Source: Halobacterium sp. R2-5 | GTDB taxonomy: Archaea; Halobacteriota; Halobacteria; Halobacteriales; Halobacteriaceae | DNA: 64,000 nt | Direction of reading: 5' to 3' | Assembly (NCBI RefSeq): GCF_011734195.1 | Contig: NZ_JAANTH010000001.1 | Span: 806,001-870,000 of the forward strand | In this document: positions 39,977 through 48,809 of the stretch, piece after piece | How positions within the stretch are numbered: the first letter of the stretch is position 1 | Layout: every line of letters begins with the position of its first letter | Made by a program: the position numbers and the translations under genes | Notes under the pieces: model-generated | Told to the model about the DNA's origin: nothing | Database searches by the model: none | What the model saw: the letters and a program-made list of their open reading frames with translations, nothing else

Positions 39977-41389
39977 TCAGACCACCATCGCGTCCACGAC
40001 GACCGCCACGAGCAGGCAGCCGAGGTAGGCGTTCGACGCGTGGAACGCGCGCATCGCTGCGCTCCGGTCGCGTTCGCGGTGCAGCCGAACTGCGGCGTAC
40101 AGGAACACGGCGCCGAAGACGACCGTCGTCGCCGCGTACAGCACGCCGAGGCCGGCGAACTCCGAGAGCGCCACCGCGGAGACGAGCGTCGCGCCGAGGT
40201 AGTAGACGATGTGCTTCCGGGTGGTGGATTCGCCGCTGACGACCGGCATCAGCGGGAAGCCGCCGCGCTCGTAGTCGTCCTTGTACGCCAGCGCGAGGTT
40301 GTAGAAGTGCGCGGGCGTCCACAGGAAGATGACCGCCGCGAGCGCCAGCCCCGCGACGCCCACGTCGCCGGTGACGGCGGCCCAGCCGATGAGCGCGGGG
40401 AGCGCGCCCGCGGCGCCGCCGATGACCGTGCTCTGACGGGTGTTCGGCTTCAGCACGAGCGTGTAGACGACGGAGTAGAACACGATGGCGGTGAACCCGA
40501 GCGCCGCGGTCAGCGGGTTCACGCTGTAGAACGCGGCCAGCGACGCCGCTGCCAGCGTCACGCCGAACGCGATCGCGTTGCGCTTCGGGATGCGGTCGTT
40601 CGCGAGCGGGCGGTCGTCCGTGCGGGACATCTTCCGGTCCTTCTCGCGTTCGAGCACGTGGTTGAAGGTCCCGGACGCGCCGATGGCGAGCACGCCGCCG
40701 CCGAGCGTCAGCGCGATCGTCTCGACGCGGAGGCTCGGACCCGCCGCCAGCGCCATGCCGGCCGCGGCGACCAGGCAGAGCAGCCACATCAGCCGCGGCT
40801 TCGTCAGCCGGAAGTACGCGTACGCGGTCGCCAGCGGGCCGGACGCGGGGACGCTGTCGTCGCCGTCGTCGCCTTTCGGCTCGCCCTCCCACTCCACGGA
40901 GGGCAGGTGGCCGGTCTGGGCTTCCAGCGTCCACGCGAGCGCGGCGACCAGGCCGGCGAAGATGAGCACGCCGAGCGCGAGGTGCGCGCCGCCGAGCGCG
41001 GCCGACCCCGGCGACGTCGCCGTGAGCGCGCCGACCGCCACCTGGACGGGGTAGGCGGCGAGTGCGATGGTGACCGCGGCGCGGACGCGGCCGGAAGTCT
41101 CCTGGCGCCACGCCAGCACCGCGGCTGCGAGCACGAGCACGCCGGTGATTACGGCGGCCGTGCGGTGGCCCCAGACGACGGCCAGCGAGACTGAGTCGAG
41201 GGCGTACCAGCGTCCGTCGCAGGCCGGCCACGACTGGCACGCCGCGGCCGCGTCCGTCAGTGCGGACGTCGCGCCGACGACGAGCAGCGTGTAGACGCCC
41301 ATTGCGGCCGCCGCGAGCACCGCCGTGAACCGGTCGGGGATGTTTCGAGTCACGAACGTCTCTCTTCGGGGGGTTACAACGGCTCCCAC
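39977..41389 (-). CDS. ctaB: Haem O synthase (CtaB) with N-terminal half CtaA-like domain
   Basis: A 470-residue fusion. Residues about 1-155 resemble one half of haem A synthase CtaA, with histidine-bearing helices VVWGHRTAAVITGVL and GGAHLALGVLIF. Residues about 190-470 are the UbiA prenyltransferase CtaB with NHVLEREKDRKMSRTDDRPL and YKDDYERGGFPLMPV. It farnesylates protohaem to haem O, and the fused half could cooperate in making haem A. It sits beside coxB. Many haloarchaea show this fusion. Confidence 0.9.
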   Translation of the reverse strand: MGAVVTPRRETFVTRNIPDRFTAVLAAAAMGVYTLLVVGATSALTDAAAACQSWPACDGRWYALDSVSLAVVWGHRTAAVITGVLVLAAAVLAWRQETSGRVRAAVTIALAAYPVQVAVGALTATSPGSAALGGAHLALGVLIFAGLVAALAWTLEAQTGHLPSVEWEGEPKGDDGDDSVPASGPLATAYAYFRLTKPRLMWLLCLVAAAGMALAAGPSLRVETIALTLGGGVLAIGASGTFNHVLEREKDRKMSRTDDRPLANDRIPKRNAIAFGVTLAAASLAAFYSVNPLTAALGFTAIVFYSVVYTLVLKPNTRQSTVIGGAAGALPALIGWAAVTGDVGVAGLALAAVIFLWTPAHFYNLALAYKDDYERGGFPLMPVVSGESTTRKHIVYYLGATLVSAVALSEFAGLGVLYAATTVVFGAVFLYAAVRLHRERDRSAAMRAFHASNAYLGCLLVAVVVDAMVV

Positions 41390-41460: not shown

Positions 41461-42237
41461 ATGAGAGGCAAGCGGCTCGCAACCGTTCTCGTCGCCGCCG
41501 TCGGCTTCCTCGCCGCGTTCGCGGACCCGGTCGCTGCCCAGCAGTACCAGTCGGTGACCGAGAGTCTCATCCGGAGCCTGAACCGGACGATGCTCGCGGC
41601 TGCGCTCCCCATCACCCTGCTCGTCGAGGGCATCCTCGTCTACACGGTGTGGAAGTTCCGGAACAACGACGAAGCGAAGCCGACCAAGGAGAACCGCCGG
41701 CTCGAAATCACGTGGACAGTCGCCACCGCCGTCGTCCTCCTGTTCGTCGGCGTCGCGGCGTACGGCGTGATGGCTCAGCCGACCGTCACCGCCACGCAGG
41801 CCGACGCCCAGGAAGCGATGGCCGAGGACGACACGGTCGTCGTCGACGCCGTCGGCGTCCAGTGGTTCTGGAACTACGAGTACCCCGAGGAGAACCTCAC
41901 GGTGAGCTCCGGCACGGCCACCGGTGACGTCGACTACGGCAACCAACCGATGGTGGTCCCGGAGGACACGAAGCTCGTGATACGCACGGAGTCCGCGGAC
42001 GTGATTCACGCGTTCCACGCGCCCGAAATCGGCCTGAAGGCCGACGCGGTTCCGGGTCAGACCAACTACCTCATCACGGAGGTCAACGAGAAGGGTACCT
42101 ACCAGCTCTACTGCGCGGAGTTCTGCGGACAGGGCCACTCGGAGATGCTCGGTGAGATCATCGTCGTGGAGGAGGACAAGTACCAGGAGTGGGTCGAGGA
42201 CCCGGAGAACACGAGCGTCGGCTCCGGCGACAACTGA
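41461..42237 (+). CDS. coxB: Cytochrome c oxidase subunit II
   Basis: A 258-residue protein with an N-terminal signal (VLVAAVGFLAAFADPVAA), two transmembrane helices (residues about 35-60 and 78-100) and a periplasm-side cupredoxin domain. The CuA ligands are visible in VIHAFHAPEI and CAEFCGQGHSEM. It accepts electrons from an external carrier such as halocyanin and passes them to subunit I. Start ATG 41461 lies 29 bases after a TATA-like box. The divergent upstream gene is ctaB. Confidence 0.96.
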   Translation: MRGKRLATVLVAAVGFLAAFADPVAAQQYQSVTESLIRSLNRTMLAAALPITLLVEGILVYTVWKFRNNDEAKPTKENRRLEITWTVATAVVLLFVGVAAYGVMAQPTVTATQADAQEAMAEDDTVVVDAVGVQWFWNYEYPEENLTVSSGTATGDVDYGNQPMVVPEDTKLVIRTESADVIHAFHAPEIGLKADAVPGQTNYLITEVNEKGTYQLYCAEFCGQGHSEMLGEIIVVEEDKYQEWVEDPENTSVGSGDN

Positions 42238-43177: not shown

Positions 43178-44044
43178 TTAGAAGCTGACGACGGCGCCCG
43201 CGTACAGCACGACGACGAGGAAGATCCAGACGGCGTCGACGAAGTGCCAGTACATCGAGACGGTGGTGACCGAGGTGTCCCGCTCGTGGGAGTACTGGCC
43301 CTTGAACGCGCGCACGGTGACGATGGCCAGGAGCACCGCGCCCAGCGAGACGTGGAGGCCGTGGAGGCCGGTCAGCCCGAAGAACGCGCTCTCGAAGACG
43401 CCGCCCGAGAGCGTCAGCCCCTCGTGGACGATGAACTCGTAGTACTCGTAGATCTGGCCGCCGATGAACACGACGCCGAGTACGAGCGTCGTGACGAGCA
43501 GACCGAGGAACCGCGAGCGGTTCCCCTTCCGCAGCGCGACGTGCGCGAAGTGCATCGTGATACTCGACACCACCAGGATGGCGGTGTTCGCGAGAACGAG
43601 CACTCCGAGGAACCCGTCGGGGACGGCGCCGACGGCCTCCGACCACTGGGCGCCAGCGCGGACGAAGAAGTAGTAGACGAACCCGGCGCCGAACGTCGCT
43701 ATCTCGGTGCCGAGGAACAGTAGCATCCCCCAGCGCAGGGCCTTCCCGCCGGAGCTCTCCCGGCTCCAGAAGTGCTTGACGAAGGCGTGGTAGACCCAGC
43801 CGTACAGGCCCGCGAGGAAGACGAAGACGCTCCCCACGAAGACGGCCGGCCCGACCATCGGGCCGACGAATCCAAGCGTGTCGTTCTGTCCCAGGACGTA
43901 CAGGGCGGCGCCGATGTAGAAGCCCGCGGCGCCGATAGCGGTGACGAACGGCCACCAGCTGGCCTCGCCGAACCCCTTCGGCCAGTCCTCCACGGCCGGC
44001 AGGTGGTGGCCGTGGTCCTCGGTCGAGTCGTCCGTGACGGTCAT
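43178..44044 (-). CDS. coxC: Cytochrome c oxidase subunit III
   Basis: A 288-residue integral membrane protein with seven hydrophobic segments. Family motifs: WWPFVTAIGAAGFYIG, LLFLGTEIATFGAGFVYYFF (the conserved lipid/E site), YEYYEFIVHEGLTLSGGVFESAFFGLTGLHGLHV, and SMYWHFVDAVWIFLVVVLY. The ATG at 44044 is chosen because upstream codons are arginine-rich. It supports proton pumping by subunit I. Minus strand, separate from coxA. Confidence 0.94.
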   Translation of the reverse strand: MTVTDDSTEDHGHHLPAVEDWPKGFGEASWWPFVTAIGAAGFYIGAALYVLGQNDTLGFVGPMVGPAVFVGSVFVFLAGLYGWVYHAFVKHFWSRESSGGKALRWGMLLFLGTEIATFGAGFVYYFFVRAGAQWSEAVGAVPDGFLGVLVLANTAILVVSSITMHFAHVALRKGNRSRFLGLLVTTLVLGVVFIGGQIYEYYEFIVHEGLTLSGGVFESAFFGLTGLHGLHVSLGAVLLAIVTVRAFKGQYSHERDTSVTTVSMYWHFVDAVWIFLVVVLYAGAVVSF

Positions 44045-44143: not shown

Positions 44144-45517
44144 ATGTCTCGTCGCGGCGCGCGCGCCGTCGGTGGCGTCGTCGGCCTGCTCGCGGTCTGC
44201 GGGGTCGCCGTCGCGCACGGCGGCAGCCTCCGAGACGCCAGCGGCCAGGAGCTCGCGGTGCCGACGTGGCTGTTCCTCTCGACGGGCGGCGCCGTCGTCG
44301 GCGCGTCGTTCCTGCTCGCGAGCTTCGTCACCGACCGCCGGTTCGTCGCCGCCGTCCACGAGTGGCGCCGCCGCCTCCCGGCACCGCGGCGCGCGCTCGC
44401 GTGGGTCGGCCACGCCGTCGGCCTCGCCGGGTTCGGATTCATCCTGCTCACCGGGTTCGTCGGGCCGACGGAGCCGCTGCGGAACGGCGCCATCGTCCTC
44501 GTCTGGGTGGGCTGGTGGGCGGCGTTCGCGATGTCCACGTACCTCGTCGGGAACTCGTGGCCCGCGATAAACCCGTTCCGCACGCTGACAGCGCCGCTCG
44601 CGCGCGTGCTCGGCGACCGGAGCGTGTCGCTGGCGCCGGGCCGCGCCGCGTGGGCGTCGACGGCGTTCCTGCTCGCGCTCGTCTGGTTCGAGGTGGTCAG
44701 CCCGCTCGCCGACGAGCCGCGGCTGCTCGCGGCGGCCGCCGTCGGCTACCTCGCGCTCTCCACTGCCGGCGTCCTCGCGGTCGGCCACGACCAGTGGTTC
44801 GCGGAAGTCGCCCCGCTCTCGCGGCTGTTCTCGATGTACGGCTCGGTCGCGCCAATCCAGCGCGCGGACGACGGCCTCGAACTCCGACTGCCCGCGATGC
44901 GCCTGACCGACGGCGTCGTCACCACGGACGGCGGGGTCGCGTTCGTCGTCGCGCTCGTCTGGGGGACGACCTACGACGGGTTCGTCGGCACGCCCGCGTG
45001 GGCGTCGTTCGCTCGCGCGGCCGTCGACGCCGGCGTTCCCCCACAGCTCCTCTACCCGGCCGCGCTGCTCGTCGGCTTCCTCGCGTTCCATCGGCTGTAC
45101 TGGTGGGCCGCGCGGAAGGCCCGCGACTTCGCGCCGACGTACACCGAGACAGCGGTGCTCGCGCGCCGGTTCGCGCCGTCGCTGCTCGCCATCGCCGCCG
45201 GCTACCACCTCGCGCACTACCTCGTGTACGCGCTGTCGCTGTCCCCGTCGCTGTTCGGCGCGCTGCTCGCGCCGTTGGACCCGCCGGTCGCGCGCACACT
45301 CGTACTCCCGTCGTGGCTCTCCGGCGTCGGCGTCGCGACGGTGCTGCTCGGGCACCTGTTCGCCATCTGGGTCGCCCACGCCACCGCCTACGACGAGCTC
45401 CCGGGCCGCCTGCAGGCGATCCGCAGCCAGTACGCGCTCACGCTCGTGATGGTGTTCTACACGATGACCAGCCTCTGGATAATCGGCCAGCCCGCCGCCG
45501 AACCACCGTTCCTATGA
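44144..45517 (+). CDS. Polytopic membrane protein resembling fenitrothion-hydrolase-like proteins
   Basis: A 457-residue protein with an N-terminal signal-like helix ending in VAHGGSL and about ten transmembrane segments. It begins like the 'fenitrothion hydrolase' membrane family found in actinobacteria and haloarchaea (HGG...LAVPTWLFLSTGGAVV). No hydrolase catalytic motif is evident. It precedes two small genes and coxA, so an oxidase assembly role seems more natural. Its stop overlaps the next start by 4 bases (ATGA). Confidence 0.6.
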   Translation: MSRRGARAVGGVVGLLAVCGVAVAHGGSLRDASGQELAVPTWLFLSTGGAVVGASFLLASFVTDRRFVAAVHEWRRRLPAPRRALAWVGHAVGLAGFGFILLTGFVGPTEPLRNGAIVLVWVGWWAAFAMSTYLVGNSWPAINPFRTLTAPLARVLGDRSVSLAPGRAAWASTAFLLALVWFEVVSPLADEPRLLAAAAVGYLALSTAGVLAVGHDQWFAEVAPLSRLFSMYGSVAPIQRADDGLELRLPAMRLTDGVVTTDGGVAFVVALVWGTTYDGFVGTPAWASFARAAVDAGVPPQLLYPAALLVGFLAFHRLYWWAARKARDFAPTYTETAVLARRFAPSLLAIAAGYHLAHYLVYALSLSPSLFGALLAPLDPPVARTLVLPSWLSGVGVATVLLGHLFAIWVAHATAYDELPGRLQAIRSQYALTLVMVFYTMTSLWIIGQPAAEPPFL

Positions 45518-45771
45518 CCGGGAAGACTGACGCCCCCGCGGACGCGCCCCGGTGTTCGTACTGCGGCGAGCCGTTCCCCAGCGAGCGCCTGCGCGCGCTC
45601 CACCGCGGCCTCGAACACTACGACAGCCTCGGCGACGACGAGCGAGCCGCCTACGAGGACGCCTACCACAGCGAGACCGAGGACATCCGCTCGTTCCGCC
45701 TGCGCGCGCTCGTCGTCCTCGTCGCGCTGTACTTCGGCTTCCTGATGACGTACGCCGTGGTCGCCGTCTGA
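45514..45771 (+). CDS. Small zinc-finger membrane protein in the oxidase cluster
   Basis: An 85-residue protein: C2H2-like finger CSYCGEPFPSERLRALHRGLEH at about residues 14-35 and a C-terminal transmembrane helix ALVVLVALYFGFLMTYAVV. Overlaps the previous gene by 4 bases. It belongs to a haloarchaea-specific family seen beside cox genes. A metal-related or regulatory role is possible. The frame upstream of 45514 is open but arginine-rich. Confidence 0.78.
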   Translation: MTGKTDAPADAPRCSYCGEPFPSERLRALHRGLEHYDSLGDDERAAYEDAYHSETEDIRSFRLRALVVLVALYFGFLMTYAVVAV

Positions 45772-45814: not shown

Positions 45815-46177
45815 ATGGTCGAGCAAACGGAGCAGGGACTGAGCGACCAGTACCCCCGCGCCAGCCCCTGGCCGATCCCGCTCGTGTTGGGCCTCGTCAT
45901 CTCCGAACTCGGTATCCTCTTCGACGGCTTCCTCCCCGTCGCCGTCGGCGGGCTGGTGCTGCTCGCGGGCAGCATCGTCGGCATCGTCCGGGAGTCCGGG
46001 TTCGCCGCGACGCTGCACCGGCCCGCGTTCGCGGTCGCCGCCGTCTTCGCCGGCCTCGGCGCCGGCCTCTACGCCGGCACGACTGCGACCGCTCGCGCCG
46101 CCGCGCTCTCCGGCACCGGCGTCGTCGTCGCCGCTGGCGCAGTCGCCCTGTTCCTCTACGAGACCGGTCGCCTCTGA
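45815..46177 (+). CDS. Small four-helix oxidase-cluster membrane protein
   Basis: A 120-residue protein with four hydrophobic segments (PIPLVLGLVISELGILF; PVAVGGLVLLAGSIVGIV; FAVAAVFAGLGAGLYAG; ALSGTGVVVAAGAVALFL). It resembles the DUF7541-type 'cox cluster' proteins of haloarchaea. It is located between the zinc-finger protein and another small membrane gene before coxA. Function unknown. Confidence 0.7.
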   Translation: MVEQTEQGLSDQYPRASPWPIPLVLGLVISELGILFDGFLPVAVGGLVLLAGSIVGIVRESGFAATLHRPAFAVAAVFAGLGAGLYAGTTATARAAALSGTGVVVAAGAVALFLYETGRL

Positions 46178-46232: not shown

Positions 46233-46493
46233 ATGAGCTCCACCATCTTCGACAAGGACACCCTCCTCGACCTGACGGTCAACATCGTCCCGCTGGCCAT
46301 CCTCGGGTTCTTCTTCGTCGGTTTCATCCTCGTGAACCCGTGGGGGGAGAGCGGCATCTCCCTGGAGCGGGTGCTCCAGTTCGGCATCGTCGGCGTGACC
46401 TTCATCGGCCTCGCCCACATCACGTACGTCTCCGCCAAACGCATCGAGGCCGGCGACGAGGACGCCGAGCACGACGCCGACGAGCAGCACTGA
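46233..46493 (+). CDS. Small oxidase-cluster membrane protein
   Basis: An 86-residue protein with two helices (VNIVPLAILGFFFVGFILVN and VLQFGIVGVTFIGLAHITYVSA) and an acidic C-terminal tail. It resembles the DUF6684-type haloarchaeal family that sits before coxA. Its own TATA-like box suggests it is made from a separate transcript. It is probably an accessory subunit, but that is inference. Confidence 0.75.
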   Translation: MSSTIFDKDTLLDLTVNIVPLAILGFFFVGFILVNPWGESGISLERVLQFGIVGVTFIGLAHITYVSAKRIEAGDEDAEHDADEQH

Positions 46494-46616: not shown

Positions 46617-48350
46617 ATGGCCTCGTCATCACTGGTGCTAACCGTGCTGATGGGCGTGCTTCTCGTCGCGGTCGCCGCGTCCCTCGCTCGTCTCGAGGAC
46701 TGGCGGTCGTACACGCCTCTCAGCGACGTGGGCGGTGCGCTCGGGGAGCGCACCGAACACGGCCACGAAGAGAAGCCGGGCGGCATCGTCCGGTGGCTCA
46801 CGACAGTCGACCACAAGGACATCGGCATCCTGTACGGCACGTACGGCGCCCTCGCGTTCGTCTGGGGCGGCCTCGCCGTGCTCCTGATGCGCATCGAGCT
46901 CGCCGCGCCCGGCAGCGACATCATCAGCGCCTCGTTCTACAACGGCCTGCTGACCAGCCACGGCATCACGATGCTGTTCCTGTTCGGCACGCCGATGATC
47001 GCGGCGTTCGGGAACTACTTCATCCCGCTGCTGATCGGCGCCGACGACATGGCGTTCCCGCGCATCAACGCCATCGCGTTCTGGCTGCTGCCGCCGGGCG
47101 CCATCCTCGTCTGGTCGGGCTTCCTGCTGCCGAGCGTCGCGACCGCCCAGACCGCGTGGACGATGTACACGCCGCTGTCCATCGAGATGGCCAGCCCCGC
47201 GGTCGACATGATGCTGCTCGGCCTCCACCTCACGGGGGTCTCGGCGACGATGGGCGCGATCAACTTCATCGCGACCATCTTCACCGAGCGCGGCGACGAC
47301 GTCGGCTGGCCGAACCTCGACATCTTCTCGTGGACGATGCTGACGCAGTCGGGGCTGATTCTGTTCGCGTTCCCGCTGCTCGGCAGCGCGCTCATCATGC
47401 TGCTGCTCGACCGGAACTTCGGGACGACGTTCTTCACCGTGTCGGGCGGTGACCCCATCCTCTGGCAGCACCTATTCTGGTTCTTCGGCCACCCCGAGGT
47501 GTACATCCTCGTGCTGCCGCCGATGGGGCTCGTCAGCCTCATCCTCCCGAAGTTCTCGGGGCGGAAGCTGTTCGGGTTCAAGTTCGTCGTCTACTCCACG
47601 CTCGCGATCGGCGTCCTCTCGTTCGGCGTGTGGGCCCACCACATGTTCACCACCGGCATCGACCCCCGCCTCCGGGCGAGCTTCATGGCGGTGTCACTCG
47701 CGATTGCGATACCGTCGGCGGTGAAGGTGTTCAACTGGATCACCACCATGTGGAACGGCAAGCTCCGGCTCACCGCGCCGATGCTGTTCTGCATCGGCTT
47801 CGTCCAGAACTTCATCATCGGCGGCGTCACCGGCATCTTCCTCGCCGCCATCCCCGTCGACCTCATCCTCCACGACACCTACTACGTCGTCGGCCACTTC
47901 CACTTCATCGTCTACGGCGCCATCGGGTTCGCGCTGTTCGCGGGCACCTACTACTGGTTCCCGATGGTCACCGGCCGCATGTACCAGAAGGGCCTCGCGC
48001 ACGCTCACTTCTGGCTCGGTCTCGTCGGCTCGAACCTCACCTTCCTCGCGATGCTGTGGCTCGGCTACGGCGGCATGCCGCGGCGGTACGCCACCTACCT
48101 GCCGCGGTTCCTCACCGCTCACCAGCTCGCGACCGTAGGCGCGTTCCTCATCGCAATCAGTACCCTGTTCTGGGTGTGGAACATGGTCGTCTCCTGGAAG
48201 GAGGGGGAGCGCGTCGACTCCGCGGACCCGTGGAACCTCGAGAACACCGACCAGCTCACGAACGACTGGGAGTGGTACGAGACCCAGCGCGACGCTCCGC
48301 TCCCGGCGACGGACGGCGGCGAACCCGAGGACGGCCAGTCAGCGGACTGA
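46617..48350 (+). CDS. coxA: Cytochrome c oxidase subunit I (type A haem-copper oxidase)
   Basis: A 577-residue integral membrane catalytic subunit. The metal ligands are clear: His in TSHGITMLF (haem a), the Cu-B His and Tyr in FFGHPEVYILVLPP, the His-His pair in WAHHMFTTG, and the haem a and a3 histidines in YVVGHFHFIVYG. The Glu in GHPEVY assigns it to type A1, with the usual D-channel proton route. It reduces oxygen to water and pumps protons. Several small accessory genes precede it. Confidence 0.97.
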   Translation: MASSSLVLTVLMGVLLVAVAASLARLEDWRSYTPLSDVGGALGERTEHGHEEKPGGIVRWLTTVDHKDIGILYGTYGALAFVWGGLAVLLMRIELAAPGSDIISASFYNGLLTSHGITMLFLFGTPMIAAFGNYFIPLLIGADDMAFPRINAIAFWLLPPGAILVWSGFLLPSVATAQTAWTMYTPLSIEMASPAVDMMLLGLHLTGVSATMGAINFIATIFTERGDDVGWPNLDIFSWTMLTQSGLILFAFPLLGSALIMLLLDRNFGTTFFTVSGGDPILWQHLFWFFGHPEVYILVLPPMGLVSLILPKFSGRKLFGFKFVVYSTLAIGVLSFGVWAHHMFTTGIDPRLRASFMAVSLAIAIPSAVKVFNWITTMWNGKLRLTAPMLFCIGFVQNFIIGGVTGIFLAAIPVDLILHDTYYVVGHFHFIVYGAIGFALFAGTYYWFPMVTGRMYQKGLAHAHFWLGLVGSNLTFLAMLWLGYGGMPRRYATYLPRFLTAHQLATVGAFLIAISTLFWVWNMVVSWKEGERVDSADPWNLENTDQLTNDWEWYETQRDAPLPATDGGEPEDGQSAD

Positions 48351-48371: not shown

Positions 48372-48458
48372 TTACGCGAAGACGAGCACGAAGCCCGTCA
48401 GGAACATCAGGAAGGCGATGGCGGCCAGCACGACGAGCATGAGCTCCTTGTCTTCCAT
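48372..48458 (-). CDS. 28-residue single-helix membrane protein next to coxA
   Basis: An ATG at 48458 to a TAA at 48372-48374 gives a 28-residue peptide with a short charged start (MEDKEL) and one hydrophobic helix (LVVLAAIAFLMFLTGFVLVFA). The layout recalls subunit IIa of ba3-type oxidases, a 34-residue single helix that begins Met-Glu-Glu-Lys. It lies just after coxA, convergent. It is too short for routine calling. Its role is inferred from location and shape only. Confidence 0.6.
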   Translation of the reverse strand: MEDKELMLVVLAAIAFLMFLTGFVLVFA

Positions 48459-48518
48459 ACTGTGTCGGTTGGCGCGCAGACCGCAAAAGGCTACCCACTC
48501 CGCCGCCTACGGTCGCGC

Positions 48519-48809
48519 GTGAGCGAACGCGACACGCGCGGCCGGCGAGTGGTGCTGTGGATGTACGTCTCGGCGGTCGCCGTCTCCGGGCTGTTCGGCT
48601 ACGTTCTCGGCGTCATCGTCTACGGGAACGGCGGTCCCGCCGGCCCGCTCGTCGAAGGGTCGGGCGACGCCGCCGCCGGCTCCGTCGGTCCGATTACGTT
48701 CCAGCTGACCGGCCCGAACCTCGCGCTGTTCGGGATGGTCTCGGTCGGGCTCCTGCTCGGCGTCGGCGTGCTCGCCATCGCGTACGTCTCCGAGCGCGCG
48801 GACGCTTGA
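48519..48809 (+). CDS. Oxidase-cluster two-helix membrane protein
   Basis: A 96-residue protein beginning at GTG 48519, with two transmembrane helices (VVLWMYVSAVAVSGLFGYVLGVIVYG and LALFGMVSVGLLLGVGVLAIAYV) joined by an acidic/glycine loop. It resembles the DUF7520-type 'cox cluster' family. The region before GTG is arginine-rich and an unlikely N-terminus. Divergent from the 28-residue gene. Confidence 0.7.
   Translation: MSERDTRGRRVVLWMYVSAVAVSGLFGYVLGVIVYGNGGPAGPLVEGSGDAAAGSVGPITFQLTGPNLALFGMVSVGLLLGVGVLAIAYVSERADA

Follow-up and report, generated by a model that had tools for sequence, protein, structure and literature searches.

A 28-residue protein family of haloarchaea follows one form of aa3-type cytochrome oxidase and is a probable accessory subunit

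Introduction

Subunit IV of the bacterial aa3 oxidases is a single helix (Pfam PF07835) that is longer than 28 residues. CydX is a very small protein, also a single helix, that is encoded in the cyd operon. PMC10095113 places subunit IV in the bacterial aa3 cytochrome c oxidases and CydX in cytochrome bd. Helper subunits exist in other terminal oxidases and are a kind of protein already known. Subunit IIa (CbaD) belongs to the ba3-type oxidases of the B family, where it replaces the helix missing from a one-helix subunit II. According to PMC3128077, subunit IIa is very small, has one helix, is encoded by an oxidase-linked gene directly upstream of the gene for subunit II, and is often missed by annotation. 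It measures 53–78 residues in archaea and carries a PX1-3G(T/A) motif and a conserved tryptophan.

Few details are available on which subunits make up the archaeal aa3 oxidases. In PMC8305020, questions about the haloarchaeal respiratory chain are described as open, and a Halobacterium aa3 preparation reported to be without CuA and CuB is cited (by title). The same paper identifies Halobacterium OE_1979R and Haloferax HVO_0907, which are 70 percent identical to each other, as the coxA1 genes of the studied aa3 enzymes. A protein of about 3 kDa would run off ordinary gels and lies below the usual annotation limits. Here we describe a protein of this size that is encoded beside coxA in Halobacterium sp. 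R2-5.

Results and discussion

The peptide gene and its position

The window analysed here is the whole stretch of 64,000 nucleotides of Halobacterium sp. R2-5 DNA, and its features are collected in Table 1. From class and genus, we take the window coxA to be the orthologue of OE_1979R and HVO_0907.

Table 1. Features of the cox region, with positions in the window
Feature	Coordinates	Strand	Basis or remark
Gene for 28-residue protein, predicted single membrane helix	48372–48458	-	ATG at 48458, TAA at 48372–48374; ORF reading, conservation, pN/pS
Promoter-like box TAGCCTTTTGC (candidate)	48483–48493	-	precedes both the peptide ATG and the divergent DUF7520 start by about 30 nt
DUF7520 membrane protein gene (PF24364)	48519–48809	+	Pfam, E 4e-15; divergent neighbour, conserved pairing
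coxA, aa3-type cytochrome oxidase subunit I	46617–48350	+	TIGR02891 above cut-off; convergent neighbour
DUF6684 small membrane protein (PF20389)	46233–46493	+	Pfam; constant companion
DUF7541 four-helix membrane protein (PF24396)	45815–46177	+	Pfam, structure model; constant companion
DUF7410 zinc-finger/membrane small protein	45514–45771	+	E 1.3e-7
457-residue multi-helix membrane protein of the cox cluster	44144–45517	+	no Pfam match
coxC, subunit III	43178–43954	-	COX3, E 1e-29
coxB, subunit II with two-helix COX2_TM domain	41461–42237	+	Pfam
UbiA-type (heme O synthase-like) protein	39977–41389	-	N-terminal stretch weakly COX15-CtaA-like, below cut-off

The peptide translates as MEDKELMLVVLAAIAFLMFLTGFVLVFA, 28 residues followed by TAA. 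A preliminary description of this DNA had placed a 28-residue frame here without giving its strand; coordinates, length and character were right, and the strand is minus. The frame ends 21 nt past the stop codon of coxA on the opposite strand, the two genes being convergent. At its other end, the peptide ATG lies 60 nt from the GTG start of DUF7520, and these two genes are divergent.

The best 19-residue mean hydropathy is 2.89, and from hydropathy only we would place the peptide in the membrane as one helix. The family follows the pattern M-x-[ED]-K-[ED]-L-L-x-L-V-L-[AG]-G-I-A-x-L-M-F-x-T-G-[FI]-V-L-V, with an acidic and lysine-bearing N-terminus. Within the helix, residues 12, 13, 15 and 22 are small, and L11 and M18 are nearly invariant; these features suggest packing against other helices. 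Over 118 distinct relatives, we counted in total no cysteine, four histidines, four prolines and two tryptophans. In one genus (g20, loci L027 and L029) the peptide is extended at its N-terminus (MLDREL...), the start being shifted upstream.

The reading frame is coding and conserved

The frame is a real coding gene under purifying selection. Thirteen congeneric sequences give a pN/pS of 0.25 in the peptide frame, compared with 1.13, 3.61, 2.00, 5.99 and 0.47 in the other five frames, and third codon positions hold 61 percent of the differences. Searching with the single sequence, we recovered the peptide at E 6.8e-5 or better in each of the 12 other congeneric genomes. When matches at E up to 10 are counted, 31 of the 59 genomes searched have it, the window's own among them. 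With a profile, the window's own genome matched at E 1.1e-13 and the 12 congeneric genomes at E 6e-12 or better, and further matches were found across the order; the best whole-genome E-values among haloarchaea reach 4e-15. Start, stop and hydrophobic core align across several families in the sequences compared. Codon 1 is ATG in 105 of the 118 distinct relatives and GTG in five, and lengths range from 27 to 32 residues. The preliminary description had named conservation of the ATG, the helix and the stop in other haloarchaeal cox loci as the check to be made, and this conservation is what we found.

As far as our searches reach, the family is restricted to haloarchaea: 148 genomes drawn from the phylum gave 14 matches, all within the window's own order. 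Searches of Pfam and NCBIfam yielded no family for the peptide, and 24 relatives run against Pfam gave scattered matches only, by single relatives, at E 0.1 or worse. Solved structures searched by sequence returned one irrelevant match (E 0.29). Searches of the open-licence literature yielded no mention of the peptide, which may have been detected earlier in small-proteome or ribosome-profiling data. As far as family, structure and literature searches tell, the family, its gene arrangement and its haloarchaeal link are new.

The peptide follows one class of CoxA

We classed 392 genomes by the E-value of their best CoxA match and counted the peptide as present at E 1e-3 or better. Weak profile matches (E 0.001 to 1) were scored as absent, and at least one of them, inside a 1044-codon frame of G059, is spurious. 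Of the 224 genomes whose CoxA is close (best E at or below 1e-250), 220 have the peptide, as do 49 of the 56 whose CoxA is intermediate. Where the only CoxA is a distant one (about 40 percent; fused in most cases, 830–860 codons), the peptide was present in 2 of 102 genomes; it was present in none of the ten genomes without CoxA at the 1e-90 cut, which makes 2 of 112 for these two classes together. Relatedness among the genomes means that a Fisher test gives no fair probability, and the peptide's spread over genera and families carries more weight.

Most of the exceptions could be accounted for. Two of the close-class misses (G021 and G025) have diverged peptide copies at the expected place; in the other two, coxA lies 405 bp from the contig end (G131) or runs to the contig edge (G098). 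Among the intermediate misses, G129, G149 and G157 carry a diverged copy beside DUF7541, with E-values of 1.1, 0.006 and 3.3 at a permissive cut-off, and these calls rest on position and likeness, not on the E-value. G263, G367 and G382 lack DUF6684 as well. G202 is an exception, as class II CoxA and DUF6684 are present and no peptide was found in 9.2 kb. Of the two distant-class matches, one is in a genome (G097) where another protein of the CoxA family is present, broken into pieces. The other, G120, is a true exception: it keeps the peptide and DUF6684, and the only oxidase found in it is distant, fused and CoxAC-like.

Where CoxA is more diverged (about 57–61 percent), the peptide is diverged too. 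At 23 loci, peptide distances correlated with CoxA distances at a Spearman coefficient of 0.48 versus 0.18 for a housekeeping neighbour (partial r 0.46), which is weak support given the non-independence of the pairs and the shortness of the peptide. The companion genes have a similar distribution. Of 42 genomes picked to include exceptions and negatives, 21 have DUF6684, and it was found in none of the 18 tested genomes with distant or no CoxA and no strong peptide match; DUF7520 was absent from 9 of 9 tested genomes having only a distant CoxA.

Gene neighbourhoods at coxA and peptide loci

Forty-one named haloarchaeal coxA loci were examined for the peptide and DUF6684. The peptide was present at 21 of 22 loci with DUF6684 nearby and at 0 of 19 without it, one of these 19 (L066) having only 311 nt of downstream sequence; L063 is the sole locus with DUF6684 and coxA that lacks the peptide. 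At the 21 loci, the peptide gene always lies on the strand opposite to coxA, within 1.1 kb at 20 of them and 5.4 kb downstream at L052. Genomes behind the coxA loci without the peptide carry it elsewhere in 19 of 20 cases searched (E 4e-8 or better). Their 20 peptide loci lie beside another coxA on the opposite strand (15), beside one on the same strand (1), or have no coxA within 1.5 kb (4). None of 38 bacterial coxA loci has the peptide.

Starting from the peptide instead, we inspected 40 loci, mostly one per genus among the better matches plus eight chosen special cases. CoxA is encoded on the opposite strand at 26 of these and on the same strand at one. Six have DUF6684 and no coxA in 6 kb, the peptide having kept its DUF6684/DUF7541 company where coxA moved away, and four, all of them copper islands (see below), have only DUF7541. 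The three loci with none of these genes are a contig edge (L143), a locus that keeps DUF7520 (L147, in G265) and a plasmid copper island (L134).

Three kinds of separation help to show what the peptide gene stays with. It follows DUF7541-DUF6684 in G022 and in several family f8 genomes; in G022 (L130), this pair closes a coxA-coxB-coxC-DUF7541-DUF6684 operon (coxB and coxC named from the ORF list), and the peptide gene converges on the operon end. In G265, the peptide gene is 318 kb from coxA with DUF7520 still adjacent. In five genomes (G156, G163, G357, G268 and G262), it shares the strand of coxA, so that adjacency is kept while orientation changes, which argues against antisense control. 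Together, these separations indicate that the constant unit is the peptide plus a set of small membrane proteins. The peptide, DUF6684, DUF7520 and DUF7541 all track the same oxidase, and the tie is to one isoform.

Proposed role of the peptide

We propose that the peptide is a haloarchaea-specific, single-helix accessory subunit of the aa3-type oxidase, which the sequence comparisons make the probable reading. In broader terms, it is very probably an overlooked helper part of this enzyme. The preliminary description saw an unannotated small protein whose charged start is followed by one helix and which goes with an oxidase of type A (aa3); this much is supported. The peptide presumably touches the oxidase, and it is more likely to be a lasting subunit than a transient assembly factor. 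In our model, its helix would pack against the oxidase together with DUF6684 and DUF7541, and once packed it would help the oxidase complex to assemble or to stay stable.

Copies in plasmid copper islands

Plasmid islands carry diverged relatives of the peptide in Halobacterium noricense, Halobacterium hubeiense, Salarchaeum japonicum and two further genomes (G004 and G041), and one more was found at a Halomicroarcula rubra locus. DNA searches found the plasmid copies; tblastn with the 28 residues gave no match because the query is too short. Neighbouring genes encode NosD/NosL, ABC transporter parts, a DUF7350 protein with a Fe2+-transport-like domain and a heavy-metal P-type ATPase. The islands also hold DUF7520, DUF7541, DUF7410 and relatives of the 457-residue protein (L133, L134, L136, L137 and L189). 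No oxidase gene was seen in the ORF lists of the islands or, by coxA tblastn, in their 12-kb loci. The gene table consulted, which is incomplete, has no gene at the peptide's place in S. japonicum and H. noricense, and none, judged by position, where Haloarcula marismortui pNG600 is homologous.

As no oxidase lies near these copies, some members of the family appear to work without one. This is the main support for a different role, in which the peptide is a transient assembly or copper-supply factor and forms, with DUF7520, DUF7541, DUF7410 and the 457-residue protein, a portable membrane module that helps to load copper into the oxidase (CuA and CuB) or into blue copper proteins without belonging to the finished enzyme. 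The separability of the peptide gene from coxA also fits such a role. It is our second choice, possible though unlikely. The peptide has none of the usual metal ligands (the four histidines among 118 sequences apart), and thus is unlikely to carry copper itself; the plasmid copies are diverged and their role may have changed; and the tight co-occurrence with one oxidase suits a subunit equally well. A tentative extension, which we hold doubtful, is that the portable set (peptide, DUF7520 and DUF7541, with DUF7410 and the 457-residue protein) serves copper enzymes, in its main version building or copper-loading the aa3 oxidase and, through the plasmid copies, serving a copper/halocyanin pathway. 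If that were true, few conserved parts of any respiratory assembly system would be as small as the peptide.

Divergent pairing with DUF7520

No Shine-Dalgarno-like stretch can be read 5' of the peptide ATG. In haloarchaea, an absent ribosome site does not speak against a gene. The best conserved feature in the upstream stretches of the 118 relatives is a T-run at -28 to -26, which fits leaderless transcription, and the missing ribosome site is therefore no refutation here. The promoter-like box TAGCCTTTTGC was matched at 9 or more of its 11 positions in 58 of the 118 upstream stretches, 56 of these matches starting at -35 to -32, compared with one of 118 shuffled stretches and none of 118 downstream stretches; for close relatives, part of this enrichment is circular, as the box was derived from sequences of that set. 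By profile, DUF7520 is divergent within 250 bp of the peptide gene in 100 of 122 distinct peptide loci, codirectional in five and neither in 17. The box was found at 57 of the 100 divergent loci and at 0 of the 22 others. These data suggest a candidate core promoter that is probably shared by two leaderless transcripts, one for the peptide and one for DUF7520. As a mark of a cox regulon, the box gave three sites in the genome (at most one mismatch) and two in the window (at most two mismatches), and no regulon was seen.

DUF7520 is the closest partner of the peptide gene by distance, and the peptide gene lies outside the cox operon in most genera. It could be argued from this, from the prevailing divergent pairing with its shared box, and from G265, where the peptide gene left coxA and kept DUF7520, that the two proteins act together in a function apart from oxidase chemistry, for example as a membrane regulator, and are kept by coxA through shared regulation. 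Such a role is improbable. DUF7520 is not nearby at 17 of the 122 loci; two of the tested genomes (G048 and G257) lack DUF7520 altogether and yet encode the peptide beside DUF6684 or DUF7541; and DUF7520 itself is missing from all nine tested genomes in which only a distant CoxA is present.

Comparison with known small subunits

The preliminary description had likened the peptide to subunit IIa of the ba3 oxidases. Size, linkage to an oxidase gene and the escape from annotation are indeed alike, and so would be the single helix that hydropathy predicts. However, the Pro-Gly/Trp motif is lacking in a family with so few prolines and tryptophans, and the peptide gene sits past the end of coxA, on the opposite strand and 6 kb from coxB, instead of upstream of the gene for subunit II. 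The window CoxB already has both helices (COX2_TM, model positions 18–84 of 88), and the partner oxidase is of the A type, not the B family. We therefore rejected the identity of the peptide with subunit IIa of a ba3-like enzyme, which is highly improbable.

The same description held that type A oxidases usually do without a helper of this kind. This was too strong, as the bacterial aa3 oxidases have subunit IV (PMC10095113). The peptide would resemble that protein as a small and non-catalytic component of an A-type oxidase. Pfam searches with the peptide and with 24 relatives, followed up to E 10, gave no subunit IV family, such short queries leaving the search little power. If the subunit reading holds, the peptide would be comparable to CydX, a terminal-oxidase protein that is likewise very small and a single helix, but the enzyme class differs, no sequence match was found, and the neighbours of the peptide gene are cox genes rather than cydAB. 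DUF6684, DUF7541 and DUF7520, also membrane proteins, belong with the peptide to one haloarchaeal cox module and have a similar distribution in the tested genomes; unlike the peptide, they are larger and already in Pfam, and no sequence relation to it was found.

That the conserved stretch is an antisense RNA, a terminator or a promoter of the cox region, as its place just beyond the coxA end on the other strand and the missing ribosome site might suggest, we rejected as next to impossible, given the coding signature, the conserved ATG and stop, the orientation to coxA that flips between genomes, and the lack of an Rfam match to the region.

The near-universal, linked peptide and its three companion families supply a handful of candidates for subunits or assembly factors still missing from the picture of the haloarchaeal enzyme. 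The peptide is also a clean case of a family of 27–32-residue proteins that is backed by more than 100 distinct sequences.

Other genes of the cluster

The 457-residue protein has no Pfam match and no sequence match in the PDB, and its relatives occur in cox clusters and in the plasmid copper islands. The DUF6684 structure model is poor (pLDDT 74, pTM 0.50). That of DUF7541 is confident (pLDDT 91) and has four helices. One DUF7541 relative weakly matches Cyt_c_ox_IV in Pfam (E 0.0039), a hint that DUF7541 may have a subunit-IV-like fold. Its likeness to small subunits of respiratory complexes is partial. In VIA-align 2, the DUF7541 model scored a best Z of 7.6 (6cfw_F) and a Z of 6.9 over 57 residues against chain H of the M. 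tuberculosis bcc:aa3 complex, values in a range common for helical bundles; Foldseek with the same model gave nothing at E 0.001. Further genes of the cluster, beside coxC, coxB and the UbiA/COX15-like gene, include one on the minus strand that is probably biotin-ligase-like, judged by its sequence. The UbiA-type protein, with its weakly COX15-CtaA-like N-terminal stretch, is possibly a ctaA-ctaB fusion.
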